A DNA stretch of 32,298 nucleotides from Moraxella sp. (GTDB taxonomy: Bacteria; Pseudomonadota; Gammaproteobacteria; Pseudomonadales; Moraxellaceae). Shown one piece after another: positions 1-14,431 of this stretch. A program made the position numbers and the translations under genes. Below the pieces are notes generated by a model. It did not search any database and was not told where the DNA came from. It was given only the letters and a program-made list of their open reading frames with translations. The DNA lies in contig JAUNEE010000015.1 in NCBI GenBank assembly GCA_030525705.1, positions 1-32,298 on the forward strand, written 5' to 3'. The number at the start of each line of letters is the position of its first letter. Position 1 is the first letter of the stretch.

Positions 1-746
1 TTGAACGGCAAATTGACCTCATCGAAGACGGCGGAAAAGTGGTGCAAGCCACTCGCCTGTATGACCCCGAAAAAGACGAAACTCGGGCAATGCGAACCAA
101 AGAAGAGGCGAACGACTATCGCTATTTCCCTTGCCCAGACCTTTTGCCTGTCATCATTTCTGACGAAACTTTACAAGCCATTAAAGACAAAATGCCAGAA
201 CTCCCCAGCGTGCGAAAAGAACGCTTTGTGAATGAACTTGGCTTATCAGCTTATGACGCCAATGTATTAAATGGTAGCCGAGAGCTTTCTGATTATTTCT
301 TGGAAGTGGTAGAAAAAGTTGGTAAAAATAATGCCAAAATCGGGGCTAACTGGATTATGGGCGATTTATTAGGTTCATTAAATAAAAATGAACTGACCAT
401 TGATAAATCCCCCATCAATGCCGAACGCCTAGCAGGACTTATCACTCGCATTTTGGATAATACCATTAGCGGTAAAATTGCCAAAGAAGTGTTTAATTAT
501 CTTTGGGAAAGCGACAAATCGGCTGATGAAATTATTAGCGAAAAAGGCTTAAAACAAGAAACCGACACAGGGGCGATTGAGGCGATTATTAAAGAAGTCT
601 TAGCCAATAACCAAACAATGGTTGATGAATATAAAGGCGGAAAAGAAAAAGCCTTTAATGGACTGGTTGGTCAGGTAATGAAAGCGAGTAAAGGTAAAGC
701 CAATCCAGCACAGGTGAATGAATTGCTTAAAAAATTAATTGGGTAA
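1..746 (+). CDS. gatB: Asp/Glu-tRNA(Asn/Gln) amidotransferase subunit B, 3' part
   Basis: GatB is the kinase/tRNA-binding subunit of the GatCAB complex, which converts Asp-tRNA(Asn) or Glu-tRNA(Gln) to the amidated forms in the cytoplasm. The reading frame is open from the left edge (first full codon at base 3) and carries the family signatures [21 protein letters not shown] and the [13 protein letters not shown] block that ends the catalytic cradle. After these come the helical linker and the C-terminal YqeY-like tRNA-binding tail, rich in Lys, Ala and Glu (about the last 150 residues, ending NELLKKLIG). The 5' half lies outside the window, so the start and the glutamine-tunnel residues cannot be judged. 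A strong intrinsic terminator follows directly, so this is probably the last gene of its operon. Confidence in the family is high. Confidence 0.95.
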
Positions 747-811: not shown

Positions 812-2734
812 ATGGCAAAGAAAGAAAAATCTACCGATTTTTGGGTATATGATTTATTAAAAAATGCTGATATTGCAGATAATTTTGATGCACAGGGTAG
901 TTCTATTTTGGAAATAGACAATGCCTTAAAAACTGCATCAAAAGCCAAAACAGGCAAAGTAGGTATGCCTGAATTTGTCGGTGTAATTAAAGATTTTTTG
1001 ATTGTCATTGAAGATAAAAAAGAGGTTGCCCTACATCAAAAGTACAATGAACAAAATCTGATTTGCCAAGAAACAGACAGCATAAAAAATTATGCCGTCA
1101 ATGGTGCAATACATTATGGTATTCATCTAAGCCAGCACACAACTTATAAAAAGATTATCGCCATTGGTGTCTCTGGCGATGAAAAACGCCATCACATCAC
1201 ACCCATTTTTATTAATGAACGAGGCGAATATAAAGAATTAACCAATATTGAAACCTTTATTTCTTTTAATGAAAATAATATTGATGAATATTATATTAAA
1301 GAAATCCTAAAAGAACAAACACCAGAAGAAAAAACCACCGCAGAAATTCTAAAAAACGCCAAAGATCTGCACGAAGATTTGCGTAATTATGGGAGCATTC
1401 AGGACAAAGACAAGCCATTACTTGTCTCTGGGATTTTATTGGCTTTACGAGAAATGGAATACAAAAACTTCTCCATTGATGATTTGATTGGCGATGATAT
1501 AACAACCGATGGCGAAAAAATCTATACCGCCATTGAAAATCATCTAAAAAGAGTCAAAGTATCACCAGAAGTTAAAAAAGACAAATTACTTAATCAATTT
1601 TCGGTCATCAAAGACACCAAAATCATCAATGAAATTAATGACAACTTAAAGAAAACACCCCTAAAACATTATACTGAATTTTTATACAAACACATTTATC
1701 AAAATATCAAATACACCCAATCCGCCGAAGATTATTTGGGGCGGTTTTATGGCGAATTTATGTCATATTCTGGTGGTGATGGACAAACGCTGGGTATTGT
1801 TTTGACCCCAAAACACATTACCGAGATTTTTTGCGAACTTGTTAATTTATCGCCTGATGATTGTATTCTTGACCCTTGCTGTGGTACGGCTGGATTTTTG
1901 ATTGCAGGTATGCATTATATGCTCCAAAAAGCCACCAGCGATAAACAGAAAAACAACATTCGTAAAAATCAACTGCACGGCATTGAATTACAACCTTATA
2001 TGTTTACGATTGCCACCACCAATATGATTTTGCGTGGTGATGGCAAAAGTAATTTAGACCAAGAAGATTTTTTAAAACAAAATCCCGCCAAATTGCAATT
2101 AAAGGGTTGTAATATTGGTATGATGAATCCGCCTTATTCACAAGGCTCAAAACAAAATCCCAATCTTTATGAAATTGCCTTTACCGAGCATTTATTAAAT
2201 AGTTTAACACCAGATGGCAAGGCGGTTGTTATTGTGCCACAGTCATCAATGACAGGCAAAACCAAAGAAGAACAAGCCATTAAAGCCAATATTTTAAAAC
2301 ACCATAGCCTAGAAGGCGTGATTACTTTAAATAAAAATACTTTTTATGGTGTCGGTACAAATCCGTGTATTGCCGTATTTACCGCAGGCGTACCGCACGA
2401 TAAAGAAAAACTGGTCAAATTTATTAACTTTGAAGATGATGGTTTTGAAGTCCAAAAACATAAAGGCTTAATAGAAACCGAATCCGCCAAAGACAAAAAA
2501 GAACATCTGCTTAATGTCTGGCGTGATGAAATCACCGCACCAACCAAGTTTTGTGTGGAGACCACCATTGAATCTGACGATGAATGGCTACATTCTTTTT
2601 ATTATTTTAATGATGAAATTCCCAGTGAAGCCGATTTTGAAAAAACGGTCGCCGATTATTTAACTTTTGAAGTGAATATGATTACGCACGGTCGTGGGTA
2701 TTTATTTGGAATTGGGGAGAATAATAATGGATAA
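812..2734 (+). CDS. Nuclease-methylase subunit of a BcgI-like restriction-modification system
   Basis: This 640-aa protein has an N6-adenine methylase core typical of HsdM-like proteins: SAM-binding motif I DPCCGTAGF at residues 354-362 and catalytic NPPY at 439-442. Its N-terminal 200 residues are not the usual HsdM helical domain. They contain PEFVGVIKDF then IVIEDKK, which fits a PD-(D/E)xK nuclease site (D61, E67, K69). No separate hsdR gene is present: gatB lies upstream and cls downstream. Fusion of nuclease and methylase with a separate specificity protein is the layout of type IIB enzymes such as BcgI, whose A subunit is of very similar size. A GGA ribosome site precedes ATG 812. The end overlaps the specificity gene by 8 bp, so translation is probably coupled. 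The gene is clearly more A+T-rich than the neighbouring chromosome, consistent with acquisition. A type I M subunit with a distant HsdR is the alternative. Confidence 0.85.
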   Translation: MAKKEKSTDFWVYDLLKNADIADNFDAQGSSILEIDNALKTASKAKTGKVGMPEFVGVIKDFLIVIEDKKEVALHQKYNEQNLICQETDSIKNYAVNGAIHYGIHLSQHTTYKKIIAIGVSGDEKRHHITPIFINERGEYKELTNIETFISFNENNIDEYYIKEILKEQTPEEKTTAEILKNAKDLHEDLRNYGSIQDKDKPLLVSGILLALREMEYKNFSIDDLIGDDITTDGEKIYTAIENHLKRVKVSPEVKKDKLLNQFSVIKDTKIINEINDNLKKTPLKHYTEFLYKHIYQNIKYTQSAEDYLGRFYGEFMSYSGGDGQTLGIVLTPKHITEIFCELVNLSPDDCILDPCCGTAGFLIAGMHYMLQKATSDKQKNNIRKNQLHGIELQPYMFTIATTNMILRGDGKSNLDQEDFLKQNPAKLQLKGCNIGMMNPPYSQGSKQNPNLYEIAFTEHLLNSLTPDGKAVVIVPQSSMTGKTKEEQAIKANILKHHSLEGVITLNKNTFYGVGTNPCIAVFTAGVPHDKEKLVKFINFEDDGFEVQKHKGLIETESAKDKKEHLLNVWRDEITAPTKFCVETTIESDDEWLHSFYYFNDEIPSEADFEKTVADYLTFEVNMITHGRGYLFGIGENNNG

Positions 2735-4301
2735 GTTAAAATTGACGGATAGGGAATGGAAAGGTTTTGCGATTGAGAAATTCTTTAATATCTATACAGG
2801 AAAAGATTTAATTCTATCAAAAATAGAGCAAGGTCATATACCAATAGTTAGCCATAGCGAAATCAATAATGGAATTCAAGCATTTAGTAAAAAAATGCAA
2901 AACTATATAATGTTTAATAGCAATACAACTATTAGTCTTGCAGATAGGGGTACGTTTAAATCTTTTGTACAGCCAAGCAACTTTTATATAGGAACCCGTG
3001 TTAAAGCACTGGAAATCAAAATAAAAATCTCCAAGAATACCTTGAAATTTATAACAACCTGCATAGATAGGCAGAGCATTCTTTTCTCTTATGGAAGAAA
3101 TGCTTGTCAAAGATTAAATAAACTCAATATATTACTCCCTACTGACAATCAAGGAAATCCTGATTGGCAATTTATGGAAGATTATATTAAACAGATTGAG
3201 CAAAAACAAAAAACTGATTTAATCAATTATTATTCCAATAAACTATTGGAAATCATCAGTGATACCAACCATCAAGATGTTCAATGGGGTTATTTTGAAA
3301 TTGGCAAACTTTTTGATTTTATCAATAAACCATCAAAAGGCTTAACTCATTTGCCCTTATCAGAGCGTGGGACAAATTATGTTGGGGCAACCAACCGCAA
3401 CAATGGTGTTTTGGAATATGTAGAAAATAATGAAAAATTAACTTATGATGGAAATGCCATTGTGTTTATTAGAAACGGTGAAGGAGCAATGGGCTATTCG
3501 GTTTATAAAAAAGAAAAATTCATTGCCACACAAGATGTTTCGGTTGGCTACAATGCCAATTTAACCGAATATAGCGGATTATTTATTACTACGATTGCTG
3601 ACAAAATTCGTGGAAAGTATAATTTTGGCTATAAACGCAATCAATCAAGACTTAATAAAGAGATATTAAGACTACCCATAGATAAAAATGGCAATCCTAA
3701 TTGGCAATTTATGGAAGATTTTATCAAAAATATTGAAAAAGATAAAATAGAGACTTTACTTTCTTATCTTAATCAATACAATACCTTAGCCGAGCCGAGC
3801 CGAGCCGAAATAGTATGGGCGAAATTTAAATTAAGTCAAGTTTTTTCTCATATTCAGCGTGGAAAAAGATTGACCAAAAATAATCAACTTGTTGGCACTA
3901 TTCCTTATGTTTCTTCATCATCGTTTAACAATGGCGTAGATAATTTTATTGCAAATAAACAAAATGTTAGGATATTTAAAAATTGCTTAACATTAGCCAA
4001 TAGCGGTAGTGTAGGATCAAGTTTTTATCAAGACTATAGTTTTGTTGCAAGCGACCATATTACAGTATTATTAACAGAAAGTGGAAATCGCTATATCTAC
4101 TTATTTCTAGCAACACAGCTGAATAAATTGGCTGAAAAATATTCATTTAATCGTGAAATCAATGACAAACGTATTCAAAAAGAAACTATTATGCTACCCA
4201 CCGATGATAAAGGCGAGCCGAATTGGGCGTATATGGAAAGCGCAATGAAAGAGATTGAGACTGGACAGGTTTTAAAAATTTTACGATATTATGCGTATTA
4301 A
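2727..4301 (+). CDS. Specificity (S) subunit with three target-recognition modules
   Basis: This 524-aa protein would direct the upstream nuclease-methylase to its DNA target. It has three related modules of about 180 residues. Each opens with an aromatic 'W..F.I..F' segment (W11, W187, W364) and closes with a 'LP.D..G.P.W.FME..IK.IE' block (137-158, 316-337, 490-511), followed in modules 1 and 2 by a helical spacer. Type I and BcgI-type S proteins normally carry two such modules, so this one is half a unit too long. ATG 2727 was chosen because GGGGAG sits 7 bp upstream; it overlaps the methylase stop by 8 bp. A four-copy pentanucleotide repeat encodes residues 355-361, exactly between modules 2 and 3. 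Loss or gain of one unit would stop translation at residue 365 or 363 and leave a normal-sized two-module protein. Family call is firm; the switch is inferred. Confidence 0.88.
   Translation: MDKLKLTDREWKGFAIEKFFNIYTGKDLILSKIEQGHIPIVSHSEINNGIQAFSKKMQNYIMFNSNTTISLADRGTFKSFVQPSNFYIGTRVKALEIKIKISKNTLKFITTCIDRQSILFSYGRNACQRLNKLNILLPTDNQGNPDWQFMEDYIKQIEQKQKTDLINYYSNKLLEIISDTNHQDVQWGYFEIGKLFDFINKPSKGLTHLPLSERGTNYVGATNRNNGVLEYVENNEKLTYDGNAIVFIRNGEGAMGYSVYKKEKFIATQDVSVGYNANLTEYSGLFITTIADKIRGKYNFGYKRNQSRLNKEILRLPIDKNGNPNWQFMEDFIKNIEKDKIETLLSYLNQYNTLAEPSRAEIVWAKFKLSQVFSHIQRGKRLTKNNQLVGTIPYVSSSSFNNGVDNFIANKQNVRIFKNCLTLANSGSVGSSFYQDYSFVASDHITVLLTESGNRYIYLFLATQLNKLAEKYSFNREINDKRIQKETIMLPTDDKGEPNWAYMESAMKEIETGQVLKILRYYAY
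3163..3720 (+). repeat. Pair of 21-bp perfect direct repeats within the S gene
   Basis: The stretch at 3163-3183 recurs exactly at 3700-3720; it begins ATTGGCAATT and ends GGAAGATT. Both copies encode the conserved NWQFMED/DWQFMED block closing modules 1 and 2. The third module has only a diverged copy near 4221. Recombination between them would remove or swap one recognition module in frame, because the spacing of 537 bp is a multiple of three. Confidence 0.9.
3789..3808 (+). repeat. Pentanucleotide tandem repeat (GCCGA)4 inside the S gene
   Basis: Four perfect GCCGA units lie in the coding frame between recognition modules 2 and 3 and encode AEPSRAE. The unit length is not a multiple of three. 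With five units the frame reads into AAA TAG at once; with three units it reaches TAA six codons after the repeat. Only a change of three units (15 bp, residues AEPSR) keeps the frame. The G+C-rich repeat stands out from its A+T-rich surroundings. Confidence 0.95.
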
Positions 4302-4346
4302 ACCACCATTATGCTAAAATACACCTTTTAACAAAGATAAGCTGTG

Positions 4347-5909
4347 ATGATAGACTGGGAACATTGGATTTTTGAAGTTTTAGCCATTGCACATACGCTA
4401 TTATTGCTGGTGTTGGTTGCTTATATTCTCACACGCCAAAAAAACTATGGCGTGGCGATTGCGTGGATTGCCATTTTGGCGTTGATGCCGTTTTTGGGTG
4501 TTGTTTTGTACCTAATTTTTGGACGAGCCTACATCAGCCGTCATTATGGTCAGCGTAACAAAAAAGCCCAAAATCTTTTGTCTGATTTTGCCAAACGCCA
4601 AGACATCAATCTAGGTTCAGATGAGCATTTAGCAAAACTTAATGACGACTGGCAAGCCCTTGCCAAAATGGGTGAAGCTAATACAGGATTTGGGGTGCAG
4701 GGCAATCATACCGCTACTTTGCTTGCTACGCCCGATGCCATTTTTGATGCCATTTTGGCGGACATTCATACCGCCAAAAAGTCTATAATGCTCTCATTTT
4801 ATATCATTCACCCCCAAGGGCGAGTGCTAGAAATTATAGATGCTTTATTGTCCGCCCAAGCTCGGGGTGTGGCGTGTGTTGTGCTTGCTGACAGCGTGGG
4901 AAGTGGTGGATTTTTTAGGTCTAAAAGTTATAAATCCCTTATAAATCAAGGCATTAGGGTTGAAGAATTACTTCCTGTGGGACTATTTAAAACCGTGGTG
5001 GCTCGTGCCGATGTTCGCAATCACCGCAAAATCATCTGTATTGATGAAGATATTGGCTATACAGGAAGTTTTAACTTGGTAGACCCCAGATTTTTTAAGG
5101 CAAAAAGTGGGGTGGGTCAATGGATTGATGTGATGATAAGAACCACCCACAAGCACGATGTCGGCGTCATCAAAGCAATGCTAACCACCATTGCCACCGA
5201 CTTATCCGCCCAGACATCGGACAATCTATCCAACCTAAAACAAGTCATTGGTACTTATACCAAAAAATTTCCCTTACCCAAAAACCGTCTAACCAACACA
5301 CGACAACCGATTGATAATAAACACCAATTTCATTTTGATAGTGTGCATAATGTGGTGATGCAGTTTTTGCCGTCCGCCCCAGAGCTGTCAGGGCATTTGG
5401 TGTATGAGACCATTATCAGTGCCATTTATAATGCCAAAAAATCCATTATCATTACAACCCCTTATTTTGTGCCTGATGAACCCTTGATGCTTGCCTTGAC
5501 CAGCAGTGCAAGGCGAGGCGTGGATATTACGCTGATTATGCCTACGGTCAATGATTCTAAGTTGGTAAAATACGCCTCCCAAGCCAATTTTCAGCCTTTA
5601 TTAGAAGCAGGCATTCGCCTTGCTTTATATCGTGAGGGCTTGTTGCATAGCAAGATTTTGTTGATTGATGATGTGTATGCGTTGTTCGGTACGGTCAATA
5701 TGGATATGCGAAGTTTTTATTTGAATATGGAGGTTACGCTTGCCATTTATCGCACGGACGATGGCTTTGGTTTGATTGATGAAATTGCCCAATTACAACA
5801 ACAATATTTAAGCCATTGTGATTTTATTAGTATGAGTGATTGGCAAAATCGCAAGCTTTATCAACAAGTCAGAGATGGAGCCGTTAGACTTATCAGCCCG
5901 CTGTTATAA
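4347..5909 (+). CDS. cls: Cardiolipin synthase (phospholipase D family)
   Basis: The protein (520 aa) is a membrane-bound enzyme that condenses two phosphatidylglycerol molecules to cardiolipin and glycerol. Two hydrophobic segments lie at about residues 7-28 and 34-58. Two PLD/HKD motifs follow, HRKIICIDE with H226 and HSKILLIDD with H434, each with the downstream G-S/T-x-N element (GSFN, GTVN). Length and order match ClsA-type enzymes. GTG 4344 is directly before ATG 4347; the ATG is preferred, and the ribosome site is weak. A gap of only 45 bp after the specificity gene, with no clear terminator, leaves read-through possible, but the function is ordinary housekeeping. Assignment to ClsA rather than ClsB/C is likely from the N-terminal membrane anchors. 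Confidence 0.93.
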   Translation: MIDWEHWIFEVLAIAHTLLLLVLVAYILTRQKNYGVAIAWIAILALMPFLGVVLYLIFGRAYISRHYGQRNKKAQNLLSDFAKRQDINLGSDEHLAKLNDDWQALAKMGEANTGFGVQGNHTATLLATPDAIFDAILADIHTAKKSIMLSFYIIHPQGRVLEIIDALLSAQARGVACVVLADSVGSGGFFRSKSYKSLINQGIRVEELLPVGLFKTVVARADVRNHRKIICIDEDIGYTGSFNLVDPRFFKAKSGVGQWIDVMIRTTHKHDVGVIKAMLTTIATDLSAQTSDNLSNLKQVIGTYTKKFPLPKNRLTNTRQPIDNKHQFHFDSVHNVVMQFLPSAPELSGHLVYETIISAIYNAKKSIIITTPYFVPDEPLMLALTSSARRGVDITLIMPTVNDSKLVKYASQANFQPLLEAGIRLALYREGLLHSKILLIDDVYALFGTVNMDMRSFYLNMEVTLAIYRTDDGFGLIDEIAQLQQQYLSHCDFISMSDWQNRKLYQQVRDGAVRLISPLL

Positions 5910-5998
5910 AATTAACCAGATGGCGTTTAAGTGCATCTTGACAAAACCAAAAATCGTTACGCACCTGATTGACCAAACCAATTTTAACCATTTTTACA

Positions 5999-6808
5999 AT
6001 GAGAATCAAAAGTGCCATAAAAACCTTACTTCAATCCGCCGACAGTCTACTCATCACAGCAGGAGCGGGAATGGGCGTGGATTCTGGCTTGCCTGATTTT
6101 CGGGGCAATACTGGTATGTGGCAAGCCTACCCTGAACTTGGTCGGCGACAAATGGACTTTACCGCCATCGCCAATCCAACCGCCTTCACCAAAAATCCAC
6201 GCCTTGCTTGAGGATTTTATGGGCACCGCTTGGCACTCTATCGAGCGACCACGCCCCACGCAGGCTTTTTTGAGCTATTAAGTCTTGCCAAAGCTCTTGA
6301 TTTGCCTTATTTTGTGTTTACCAGCAATGTCGACTGTCAATTTCAAAAAGCAGGCTTTAATGCCAATAGAATCTATGAATGCCACGGCTCAATTCATCAT
6401 CTGCAATGTACCACGCCTTGCTCTGATAGCATTTGGACGGCGGACGGCTTAACACCTGTGATTGACAATGAAAAATGTGAGTGGCTTGGGGCGTTGCCGA
6501 CTTGCCCGCATTGTGGCGGTCTGGCTCGTCCTAATATTTTGATGTTTGGCGATTGGTACTGGATTGGCGATAGAAGCGATGCCCAAGAAAATCGCCTACA
6601 AAAGTTTTTGACAGATTATCAAAACCCTGTGGTGATTGAGCTTGGAGCTGGCACAGCAATCCCCACCGTCAGACGCTTTGGCGAACGCTTTGCCCCGCGC
6701 CTAATTCGAATCAATCCAAGAGATGACGGTTTGCCAAAACAAGGTGGGATAAGTTTAAAGATGGGTGCAAAGGCGGGGGTTCGCCACTTATTAGAAGCAC
6801 TGGATTAA
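5999..6808 (+). pseudogene. SIR2-family NAD-dependent deacylase, interrupted by in-frame TGA
   Basis: A sirtuin would remove acyl groups from protein lysines using NAD. The frame from ATG 5999 carries the NAD-binding GAGMGVDSGLPDFRG segment, then stops at TGA 6209-6211. The same frame continues without any indel as GFYGHRLALYR, then TSNVD, the catalytic ECHGSIHH, a zinc site of two Cys pairs (CTTPC, CPHC), FGDWYW and IELGAGTAIPTVR, to a stop at 6808. Sirtuins of this type have Trp where the TGA falls (RLA-W-GFYGHR), so a single TGG-to-TGA change explains the break. The upstream fragment (70 aa) lacks the catalytic His and the downstream part lacks the NAD loop, so neither should work alone. 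The ribosome site before ATG 5999 is poor. A sequencing error or TGA read-through cannot be excluded. Confidence 0.85.
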
Positions 6809-12205: not shown

Positions 12206-12504
12206 GCGTACTTGCCAAAATCCTAAGCCAATCCACCCACCACCGTCAAACATACGAGCCGTTACGCCTTGACCCTATCGCCTTTTATGGTCGGTTTCAT
12301 ATTGCCATCAAAAATCAAGGTTGGCAAATGGTGCGTTGCCCATTCCACGATGACAAACACGCCAGTTTATCCGTCAATGGCACGCACGGCGGTTTTATTT
12401 GCCACGCCTGCCACGCCAAAGGCAATATGGTTGGCTTTTATATGCGTATGACAAACACCGACTACAAAACCGCTATGATTGAATTGGGGGCATATGATGA
12501 ATGA
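12202..12504 (+). CDS. CHC2 zinc-finger primase-type protein
   Basis: The 100-aa protein carries the zinc-binding set of DnaG-type primases: C46-x2-H49 in RCPFHDDKHASLSV and C67-x2-C70 in FICHACHAKGN. This domain recognises template DNA during primer synthesis. In standard primases the zinc domain is fused to the TOPRIM catalytic part. Here it is a separate gene that ends inside the start of the TOPRIM-DUF3631 gene (11-bp overlap). The C-terminal YKTAMIELGAYDE matches the helix that normally follows the zinc domain, so the split lies at a natural domain border. The two proteins probably act together. Confidence 0.9.
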   Translation: MSVLAKILSQSTHHRQTYEPLRLDPIAFYGRFHIAIKNQGWQMVRCPFHDDKHASLSVNGTHGGFICHACHAKGNMVGFYMRMTNTDYKTAMIELGAYDE

Positions 12505-14431
12505 TAAACTACAACAAGCCCTACAATGGGCATTAAACAATGATAAGGGGCTAAAAGCAATGGGGGCAAGTATGAATGACTTGACCGCCATTTACCCTTA
12601 TCACAACCAAGGACAAGAAGTCTTTATCAAGGCACGATTTGACAAAGACGGCAAGAAATGGATTAAGCCGTTTTTCTTTGATGGCAACCGCTACAAGATG
12701 GGCGAGCCAAAGCACCTAGACACCAAGCCCCTTTATCTACCTGCCCCATTGGGCGATGTGGTGTATATCGTTGAAGGGGAGAAATGCGTTGATAGATTGG
12801 TAAGCATTGGACTATCCGCCACCACTACAGGGGGAGCGACCAGTATTGATAAATGCGATTTGACACCGCTACAAGGGCGTAAATGCGTGCTATGGCGTGA
12901 TAATGACACCGCAGGCGAGAAATGGCAAGGCGAGCTTATCACCGCCTTAAATCGCCTTAATATCGCCTATGAAGTGATTGATATAACAGGCGTGATGTTG
13001 CCCACTGGCGAGCGTTTGCCAGTCAAGGGCGATTGTGTGGACTTTATTGAAAGTCATTTGCAAGATGGTAACGCAGGCGTGAAAAGTCTAATTGAACGCT
13101 TGCCACGCCTTGACGGCAACGCCATCACCAACGACACCACCAATAACGCACAAATAACAGACAGTAACGACACCGCCACCGCCCTAGCCGACCTTGACGC
13201 ACAAGTGCAAGAACTACAACAAGCCATCAAAGAGCTTGCGGAGCTTGACGAACACCGCTTACATTTACTGCTTTCAAGAGTGGCAAAGCGTTTTGGGGTT
13301 GGGCGGGATAAACTTTTGCAATGGGTGTATGAACACAAGCAAGGCGAGCTGGTACAAGAACCCACCGCCCATCATGAACCCATTAGCCACGATGAAATTT
13401 ACACCGCCCTTTATGGCTTGATTGACCGTCATATTTTTATTAATGAACCGTTAAAAGTTGCATTTGTGCTATGGGTGCTATTTACCTACCTTACCGACAT
13501 TGCAGAGTTCGCCCCGATTGCATGGATAACCGCCCCTGAGCGAGCATGTGGCAAGACCACGCTACTTGATTTATTTGAACGGGTTGTTTACCGCCCCTAT
13601 GCCATGCTAGACCCCACAAAGGCGGTTATCTTTCGGGTGATGGATAAGTTTAAGCCGACCTTGCTTATTGATGAGATTGACACAGGGTTAAAAGACAAGG
13701 CGGACATTTTGGGCATTATCAATGGCGGTTACAGTAAGGGCAAGCCCACAGGACGGATAAATAGCGACAAGGGCAACAGCCTAGAAGCGTTTAACGGTTT
13801 TGGAGCAAAGGTGCTTTGTGGTATTGGCAACCTACAAGGCACAACCGCAAGCCGTTGTATTAGATTTGAGATGAAACGCAAAGGCAAAAGCGACAAAGTA
13901 ACGCCAATGAACAAAAGAACCCTGCCATTTACCCAAACCGAACTTATCCGCCAAAAGTGCAAACGATGGGCAATGGATAACCGCCAAGCCGTTGATGGGG
14001 TAGAAATACCGCTTATTGATATTAGCGATAGGGCATATAACAGCTGGTACATTCTTTTGCAAATTGCCACGGTGCTAGGGGTGTATGATAAGGCGTTGCA
14101 GGCGTGTTTATCCATTTGCCAAACCAAAGATGAACCTAGCCAACACGAGCAGTTACTGCACGACACAAGAGAAGTCTGGCATGGTGAAAAGATGGCGTTA
14201 AGAATGCTATTAGAGCGTTTAACCGCCCTTGATGAAGCCCTATGGCAAACCTACAACAACGGGCAAGAGATGACCGCCCACCAGCTAGGGAAAAAATTAA
14301 GGGGGTTTGGGATTGACACACAGACCGTCAAAACAGGGGCAAGCACCAGTGCCAAGGGCTATTACAAGACCCAATTTGTGCCAGTTTGGGAGCGGTATTT
14401 ATCGCCCAAGGTTAATGAGAGCGAGTTTTAA
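12494..14431 (+). CDS. TOPRIM primase / DUF3631 helicase-like replication protein
   Basis: This 645-aa protein combines a TOPRIM domain (E94 in VYIVEGEK, D136-N-D138 in LWRDNDTAG) with a P-loop ATPase of the DUF3631 type: Walker A APERACGKTTLL with K354 and Walker B TLLIDEID with D393-E394, then INGGYSKGKPTGRI. A Gln/Glu-rich helical linker (about 220-260) separates them. Such proteins serve as the replication initiator and helicase of satellites and integrative elements, comparable in role to P4 alpha. ATG 12494 or 12497 is preferred over TTG 12479 because GGGGG lies just upstream. The C-terminal 150 residues include an HQLGKKLRGFGIDTQ helix-turn-helix-like segment that may bind the nearby iterons. 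A terminator and an iteron cluster follow directly. Confidence 0.92.
   Translation: MMNDKLQQALQWALNNDKGLKAMGASMNDLTAIYPYHNQGQEVFIKARFDKDGKKWIKPFFFDGNRYKMGEPKHLDTKPLYLPAPLGDVVYIVEGEKCVDRLVSIGLSATTTGGATSIDKCDLTPLQGRKCVLWRDNDTAGEKWQGELITALNRLNIAYEVIDITGVMLPTGERLPVKGDCVDFIESHLQDGNAGVKSLIERLPRLDGNAITNDTTNNAQITDSNDTATALADLDAQVQELQQAIKELAELDEHRLHLLLSRVAKRFGVGRDKLLQWVYEHKQGELVQEPTAHHEPISHDEIYTALYGLIDRHIFINEPLKVAFVLWVLFTYLTDIAEFAPIAWITAPERACGKTTLLDLFERVVYRPYAMLDPTKAVIFRVMDKFKPTLLIDEIDTGLKDKADILGIINGGYSKGKPTGRINSDKGNSLEAFNGFGAKVLCGIGNLQGTTASRCIRFEMKRKGKSDKVTPMNKRTLPFTQTELIRQKCKRWAMDNRQAVDGVEIPLIDISDRAYNSWYILLQIATVLGVYDKALQACLSICQTKDEPSQHEQLLHDTREVWHGEKMALRMLLERLTALDEALWQTYNNGQEMTAHQLGKKLRGFGIDTQTVKTGASTSAKGYYKTQFVPVWERYLSPKVNESEF

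Follow-up and report, generated by a model that had tools for sequence, protein, structure and literature searches.

A GCCGA repeat between recognition modules as a probable switch between three- and two-TRD specificity subunits in a BcgI-like system of Moraxella

We describe a BcgI-like restriction-modification system in Moraxella sp. that is probably phase-variable: the number of units in a GCCGA tract within its specificity (S) gene sets whether three or two recognition domains (TRDs) are translated, and the three-TRD subunit most likely uses a second or a replaced target site. We give this reading a probability of roughly 0.78. The system lies in the window, by which we mean the whole stretch of 32,298 nucleotides that was analyzed (contig JAUNEE010000015.1 of assembly GCA_030525705.1, positions 1 to 32,298 of the forward strand).

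The assignment of the system as BcgI-like (Type IIB, or multisubunit Type IIG) holds on the features of its two genes. The gene for the restriction-methylation fusion (RM) subunit (812..2734, + strand; 640 aa, BcgI A-like) encodes an N6_Mtase domain (PF02384, 4.6e-35), and residues 3-638 of the protein match positions 3-636 of the 637-position PADLOC profile REase_MTase_IIG (PDLC03602, 6.2e-173). Residues P53, E67 and K69, which we take to be the nuclease motif (PE...ExK), are invariant in all 78 aligned sequences, and the four residues of NPPY, presumably the methylase motif, are each conserved in 76-77 of the 78. An RM subunit of about 640 aa with an N-terminal nuclease motif and an N6-adenine methylase, next to a separate and modular S, is the arrangement by which we recognize BcgI-like systems. 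A neighboring gene pair in a Staphylococcus phage is annotated bcgIA and bcgIB, the former 46% identical to the window RM. An earlier note on this DNA had placed the S subunit in the BcgI type, and the PADLOC profile matches of RM and S agree with it.

Upstream of the RM gene is the 3' part of a conserved neighbor (39..746, + strand) that we take to be gatB and that has a homolog in 20 of 22 genus genomes. It marks the insertion point of the system, with the RM gene directly behind it in G000, G005, G010 and G018. In G009 (L137) the gatB-like gene is followed by a decayed RM that matches piecewise (74% identity over 77 residues), a remnant that suggests that the system was lost from this site.

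The S gene (2727..4301, + strand; 524 aa) starts at an ATG at position 2727 and overlaps the 3' end of the RM gene, which ends at 2734. A piecewise scan found three separate Methylase_S domains (PF01420; E values of 5e-10, 4.9e-13 and, for module 3 alone, 5.4e-23), and the PADLOC profile Specificity_II (PDLC03591, 341 positions) matches S in three stretches (6e-56). Matches to a module HMM place module 1 at about 2733..3230, module 2 at about 3261..3767 and module 3, the switchable one, at about 3795..4289, all in frame on the + strand. As sequenced, the window S therefore has three TRDs in one chain and not the BcgI-like two, a number that the translated allele of a second Moraxella genome, G010, does have. 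The window TRDs are 29-30% identical to one another (29.1% for TRD2 against TRD3).

The (GCCGA)4 tract (3789..3808, + strand) is reported by TRF at 3788-3808 as 4.2 copies with a 100% match, encodes linker residues 355-361, and contains the start of the module 3 match; together, TRF and the module HMM place it where the earlier note had put it, in frame where module 2 meets module 3. Three consecutive units gave two overlapping matches in the window and none in 100 dinucleotide shuffles, and four consecutive units occur a single time in the 1.45 Mb of the incomplete source genome; that assembly is fragmentary (64% complete, 87 contigs), and its count of four may represent a collapsed or a slow allele. 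The tract is a frame-shifting simple repeat inside coding sequence, with stops in both other frames. A TAG (3811..3813, + strand) terminates the frame reached by gaining one unit or losing two, and a TAA (3827..3829, + strand) terminates the frame reached by losing one. The computed products are 524 aa with four units, 529 aa with seven, 363 aa with five, 365 aa with three and 358 aa with two, and the lengths that had been worked out by hand for five and three units were reproduced exactly.

Because S had no match in a sequence search of the PDB, we turned to fold comparison. The AlphaFold2 model of S (pLDDT 84) contains one segment with pLDDT below 50, residues 353-359, and the residues encoded by the tract start at 355. 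Just before it, module 2 ends as a long helix (model residues 326-350). Solved two-TRD S (HsdS) structures align to the model up to residues 352-354, and module 3 was matched alone (364-524); the structural alignment omitted low-confidence stretches, which perhaps sharpened the border at 354. The tract is predicted to lie in the one disordered linker, right behind a complete part that resembles a two-TRD subunit, and where module 3 sits with respect to the remainder of S is uncertain (pTM 0.55).

GCCGA tracts of at least four units were found in 3 of the 22 genus genomes searched, always in the S gene. In Moraxella lacunata NCTC10359 (G005, L046; NZ_UGQU01000004.1), with an RM 98% identical to that of the window, the tract has 16 units and is in frame, fusing three modules. 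In G010 (RM 96% identical) it has 20 units and is out of frame, with a stop right behind the tract, such that two modules are translated; module 3 is intact and open in another frame but untranslated, and its frame contains no ATG, GTG or TTG from the preceding stop up to the beginning of the module. Stops fall in both relatives as they do in the window, 1.0 codon and 6.3 codons past the tract. A unit number fixed at four among relatives had been named beforehand as the observation that would speak against a switch; the counts in three Moraxella genomes were 4, 16 and 20, in comparisons made between species representatives or MAGs. Together with the frame lengths, these natural alleles, fused at 4 and 16 units and two-module at 20, give good support to the claim that repeat number decides between three modules and two. 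The modules themselves are shared in a pairwise fashion: module 1 by the window and G010 (95% identical), module 2 by the window and M. lacunata (93.5%), and module 3 by M. lacunata and G010 (95%), the remaining same-position pairs compared among the three being 38-49% identical.

Other members of the family carry other repeats. In a Moraxella MAG (G018, L047), a G8 tract is present at junction 1, between TRD1 and TRD2, and the contig stops within module 2. G748 (L173), from another genus of the Moraxellaceae, has an RM 98% identical to that of the window and an out-of-frame (GAGAGTC)18 at junction 1; its S is 226 aa with one module, and about 390-397 aa were computed with 16 or 19 units. Letters like those that flank the GCCGA tract come after this heptanucleotide tract, and module 3 of M. 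lacunata is 90% identical to the last module of this locus. Set beside Moraxella, G748 illustrates turnover of the repeat unit at module boundaries inside one family. The junction 1 form of the tract was found in relatives such as L047, L048 and L173, and in five Moraxellaceae loci the tract precedes the last module seen, whatever its repeat unit.

Downstream of S, on the + strand, the window contains a gene at 4344-5909, presumably cardiolipin synthase-like, that is absent from this place in G005 and G010. It is followed at 5969-6808 by a gene, which we take to be sir2-like, that is split over two ORFs in the window and is a single open frame in G005 and G010; the split represents either a pseudogene or an assembly frameshift. 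Farther on are a tyrosine integrase (PF00589; 7214-8458, + strand) and, behind it, a stretch that includes a DUF3631 protein (12479-14431); an integrated element may be present here.

The confinement of such tracts to module junctions extends across the RM family. We scanned GTDB genomes with the RM protein and took the best 80 of the loci from 135 relatives; four with at most 300 bases past RM were dropped, and the window and G010 were added, for 78 regions. In 77 of these at least one module of at least 100 HMM positions was present, near-identical loci being counted separately. Tracts were called at a minimum of 8 for G or C, 9 for A or T, six units for dinucleotides, four units for 4- and 5-mers, and three units for 7- and 8-mers. 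By these thresholds, the 88 junctions of the 77 loci (8,125 nt) hold 46 frame-shifting tracts, one per junction. None was found in 75,780 nt of module interior from the same loci, where modules are defined as open-frame HMM matches and an out-of-frame tract within a module would split the match and could escape the count, and none in 141,305 nt of RM genes (G010 left out). Dinucleotide shuffles of the S regions contained 22 tracts on average and 31 at most in 100 runs, against the 46 observed; such shuffles retain the GG or TA pairs of the tracts themselves, and we took the RM genes and module interiors as controls in their place.

In this first set, a junction tract was present in all 24 loci with three or four modules and in 13 of 41 two-module loci, with GCCGA, TA, G, C or A as the unit. 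Loci with junction tracts span the Pseudomonadota, Bacillota, Mycoplasmatota, Bacteroidota, Campylobacterota and Synergistota. (Code 4 was applied to one locus, L060, in part of the analysis; as neither its RM frame nor its S frame contains a TGA, the choice of code is immaterial.) The longest series of modules is in L112, an uncultured Helicobacter MAG with four TRD modules and G14, G16 and G14 at the three junctions, in which modules 1-3 are fused and the fourth is out of frame. In a tree of RM built by a quick method, with SH-aLRT support only, the loci with TA, which have members in Anaerococcus, Fenollaria, Ezakiella and Peptoniphilus, form one clade (95), as do those with GCCGA (83). G and C tracts recur in separate places, and all labels together need 32 changes where the minimum is 12. 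The recurrence of different repeat units at one boundary suggests, from these sequence comparisons, repeated selection for changing the number of modules.

Two later batches of loci were added. From the first, 10 of 14 stretches were scanned (L175-L177 repeat L054, L052 and L066, and L183 is short); L180 repeats L065, and 6 of the 9 new loci had a junction tract. In L179 the third module is decayed, behind a junction without a qualifying tract. Among the 12 stretches scanned in the second batch, L201 and L203 repeat earlier loci, leaving 10 new ones: three with a G junction tract (L202, L204, L211), four with two modules and no junction tract, and two with one module only. The third module of L207 is broken and lies behind (AT)4, below the tract threshold. 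Wider searches, each with its own center included, gave 4 of 393 genomes in the Bacteroides order, 14 of 249 in the Anaerococcus order, 6 of 299 in the Moraxellaceae and 13 of 398 in the Campylobacter order. In plasmid and phage collections, RM matched 20 and 9 records, respectively, at E values of at most 1e-50 (best identities 66% and 53%), and the S region was scanned in 7 of these 29. Three Macrococcus plasmid loci had a split S and no tract, and a tract was likewise absent from two plasmid loci and one Staphylococcus phage, each with two modules. In L216, an unverified faecal contig, G8 lies at junction 1.

Of the 46 tracts, 19 have a phase that fuses the modules and 27 do not, a share that does not differ from one in three (p = 0.27), and exactly one phase fuses in 45 of the 46, the exception being L047, which is cut at the contig end. 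In the 23 three-module loci, the first frame holds one, two or three modules in 8, 8 and 7 cases. In non-fusing phases a stop comes at a median of 2.3 codons past the tract, compared with 7 at random module positions (p about 1e-6), and certain off-frames append long tails of up to 57-69 codons. Tracts start at a median of 27 nt past the end of the module HMM match, close to the natural S stop, which comes at a median of 15 nt (n = 68).

The most direct sign of slippage comes from outside Moraxella, in three nearly identical loci with homopolymer tracts of 8-9 bp: L055 (Onthomorpha MAG), L056 (Bacteroides mediterraneensis) and L057 (Mediterranea massiliensis). Their RM genes are equal in 1,800 of 1,800 bases (L055-L056 and L056-L057), and their S regions, tracts aside, have no mismatch over 877 bases for L055, a short contig, and 1,709 for L056 and L057. 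One G at junction 1 separates L055 from the other two, and one G at junction 2 separates L056 from L057. That RM and S DNA are otherwise identical across three genera suggests that the entire system was transferred very recently. Similarly, L181 and L182 differ by G9 against G10 at junction 2 and by one substitution in about 1,700 nt.

These comparisons bear on whether the tract of the window still switches. It could be a relic within a fixed three-TRD S of the window's own lineage, a possibility that is compatible with switching in relatives, and the repeat of the window is indeed just 20 bp long, against 80 and 100 bp in the two GCCGA relatives. Against this, unit number differs between close relatives, and homopolymers as short as those of L055-L057 differ between otherwise identical ones. 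We consider a relic unlikely, if a serious possibility. The tract is clearly variable among close relatives, and the window allele is most aptly viewed as its three-module state; the four units of the window may slip slowly.

Module 3 appears to be a functional recognition domain whose translation is frequent enough to keep it intact. This reading follows from its low dN/dS and from its likeness to TRDs of other positions. Between G010 (module 3 off) and M. lacunata (on), module 3 has a dS of 0.20, a dN of 0.029 and a dN/dS of 0.15, constraint that may come partly from the translated copy. Three pairs in the TA group gave 0.09-0.10, with dS above 1, and in two of these, L053/L054 and L052/L053, module 3 is off in both members. 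Values elsewhere were 0.08 (L083/L092), 0.37 (L061/L063) and 0.57 for the divergent pair L101/L103. As for likeness, module 1 of the window and module 3 of Campylobacter L101 share 57% identity, and window module 3 shares 64% with module 1 of the Moraxella MAG L047.

We therefore regard as improbable the proposal that two-module S is the sole working form, with a fused module 3 jamming assembly and the tract turning the system on and off rather than changing its specificity. Such jamming could be imagined from the BsaXI complex, described as containing one two-TRD S for two RM subunits (PMC11997821), and from the absence of a confident place for module 3 in our model. But module 3 is intact and its dN/dS is low in most pairs tested, position-3 TRDs are related to TRDs at positions 1 and 2 elsewhere, and a natural three-TRD HsdS is active: JHP1422, the S of Hpy99XV, has three consecutive TRDs and methylates two sites via different TRD pairs (PMC3936762). 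JHP1422 differs from the window S in being Type I and in having identical TRD2 and TRD3, where the window TRDs share 29-30%, and no repeat tract is described in the sections consulted, where the window has GCCGA (PMC3936762).

A change of TRD number by a slippable tract is already known for one versus two TRDs, in BcgI-like enzymes. A close precedent is the BcgI-like Type IIG system HpyUM032XIII of Helicobacter pylori, which resembles the window system in its RM and S, its slippable tract between modules and the setting of TRD number by frame; there, a palindromic methylation site is exchanged for a mixed one, on expression in E. coli, through a G tract that separates TRD1 from TRD2 (PMC4450513). 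It differs in switching between one and two TRDs by G12/G11 at the TRD1/TRD2 boundary, where the window has a pentanucleotide at TRD2/TRD3 and two versus three (PMC4450513). In NgoAV of Neisseria gonorrhoeae, poly-G slippage fuses or truncates S with a change of specificity, and isolates vary naturally; unlike the window system, NgoAV is Type I with separate HsdM and HsdR and alternates between one and two TRDs (PMC9577141, PMC6789123). BsaXI is like the window system in its RM fusion and its separate S of modular TRD-CR units, and TRD1-CR1 alone or a duplicated TRD1 with RM yields a new symmetric specificity (PMC9159934); its S has two TRDs, the changes were engineered, and a natural tract is not among the features described in the accessible text (PMC9159934, PMC11997821).

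In the Type IIG enzymes HpyAXVI/Hpy99XIV the target site changes when a second homopolymer appends an extra recognition domain at the C terminus; these are single chains compared with the MmeI family, and the added domain resembles part of a TRD and not a whole S module as in the window (PMC3936762). DOMO denotes the movement of TRDs from one position to another in S genes, among them an H. pylori Type IIG S gene, and it generates S genes that carry one or three TRDs; the proposed mechanism is recombination at flanking repeats and not, as proposed for the window, frame slippage at a simple repeat (PMC3077401).

HpyUM032XIII and NgoAV also speak to whether out-of-frame alleles yield, besides a two-TRD S, a separate half subunit made from module 3 with its one TRD, the two perhaps recombining as a complex. 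S1 and S2 are separate genes in HpyUM032XIII, but S2 alone is inactive there (PMC4450513), and hsdS2 of NgoAV encodes no active protein (PMC9577141). In Campylobacter L103, an ATG and a Shine-Dalgarno-like stretch precede module 2, past the G tract of junction 1, and given this start both S halves may be made in that locus. Module 3 of G010 has no comparable start codon behind the preceding stop, and we judge split translation very improbable. We attach slightly less weight still to the idea that the tract chiefly tunes spacing, as in EcoR124, with three-unit steps (five residues, AEPSR) shifting the distance between half-sites: the in-frame 4- and 16-unit alleles do differ by 20 linker residues, but two of every three unit changes lose the frame, the tract encodes a linker predicted to be disordered and not part of a rigid helix, and the units of relatives (G, C, TA, 7-mer) shift the frame at every single step. 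Miscounted homopolymers or repeats that mimic frame differences are conceivable where many loci are MAGs or short-read drafts, but the tracts found are confined to junctions, include 2-, 5- and 7-base units, and are present in assemblies of three contigs (G010) and one contig (G748), and we give an artefact hardly any credence.

We thus return to a tract that sets the number of TRDs in S. Replication slippage in culture would alter the number of GCCGA units in the S gene. Unit numbers of the form n = 1 mod 3 would fuse module 3 and give a three-TRD S; all other numbers would bring a stop within seven codons of the tract and leave an S like a complete canonical two-TRD subunit. With two TRDs the enzyme would be directed to one bipartite site, by TRD1 with TRD2, and with three it would most likely also use one or more pairs containing TRD3, for a second or a replaced site. 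We infer that the methylation motif and the cleavage target would change between the two- and three-module states. From the precedents of HpyUM032XIII, NgoAV, JHP1422 and BsaXI, we expect a two-module S to give a single bipartite motif and a three-module S to give at least one more.

In the literature that we searched, which included few subscription papers, we did not find a tract at the TRD2/TRD3 boundary, penta-, hepta- or dinucleotide tracts of this kind, or the family-wide pattern. A survey in FASEB J in 2020 reportedly covers simple repeats in Type I hsdS genes.

A broader proposal, on which we are evenly divided, is that BcgI-like S genes in six phyla are TRD ladders, in which repeat length sets one to four TRDs (four in L112) for a graded multi-specificity instead of an on/off state, with three-TRD forms addressing several half-site pairs. 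A single slip would, should the three-TRD state add a motif, alter methylation across the genome and the cleavage of incoming DNA with the enzyme itself retained. Specificity switching driven by tracts would then cover two-or-three TRDs as well as one-or-two and reach bacteria far removed from Helicobacter and Neisseria, and the natural alleles make it possible to test what an S with three different TRDs recognizes.
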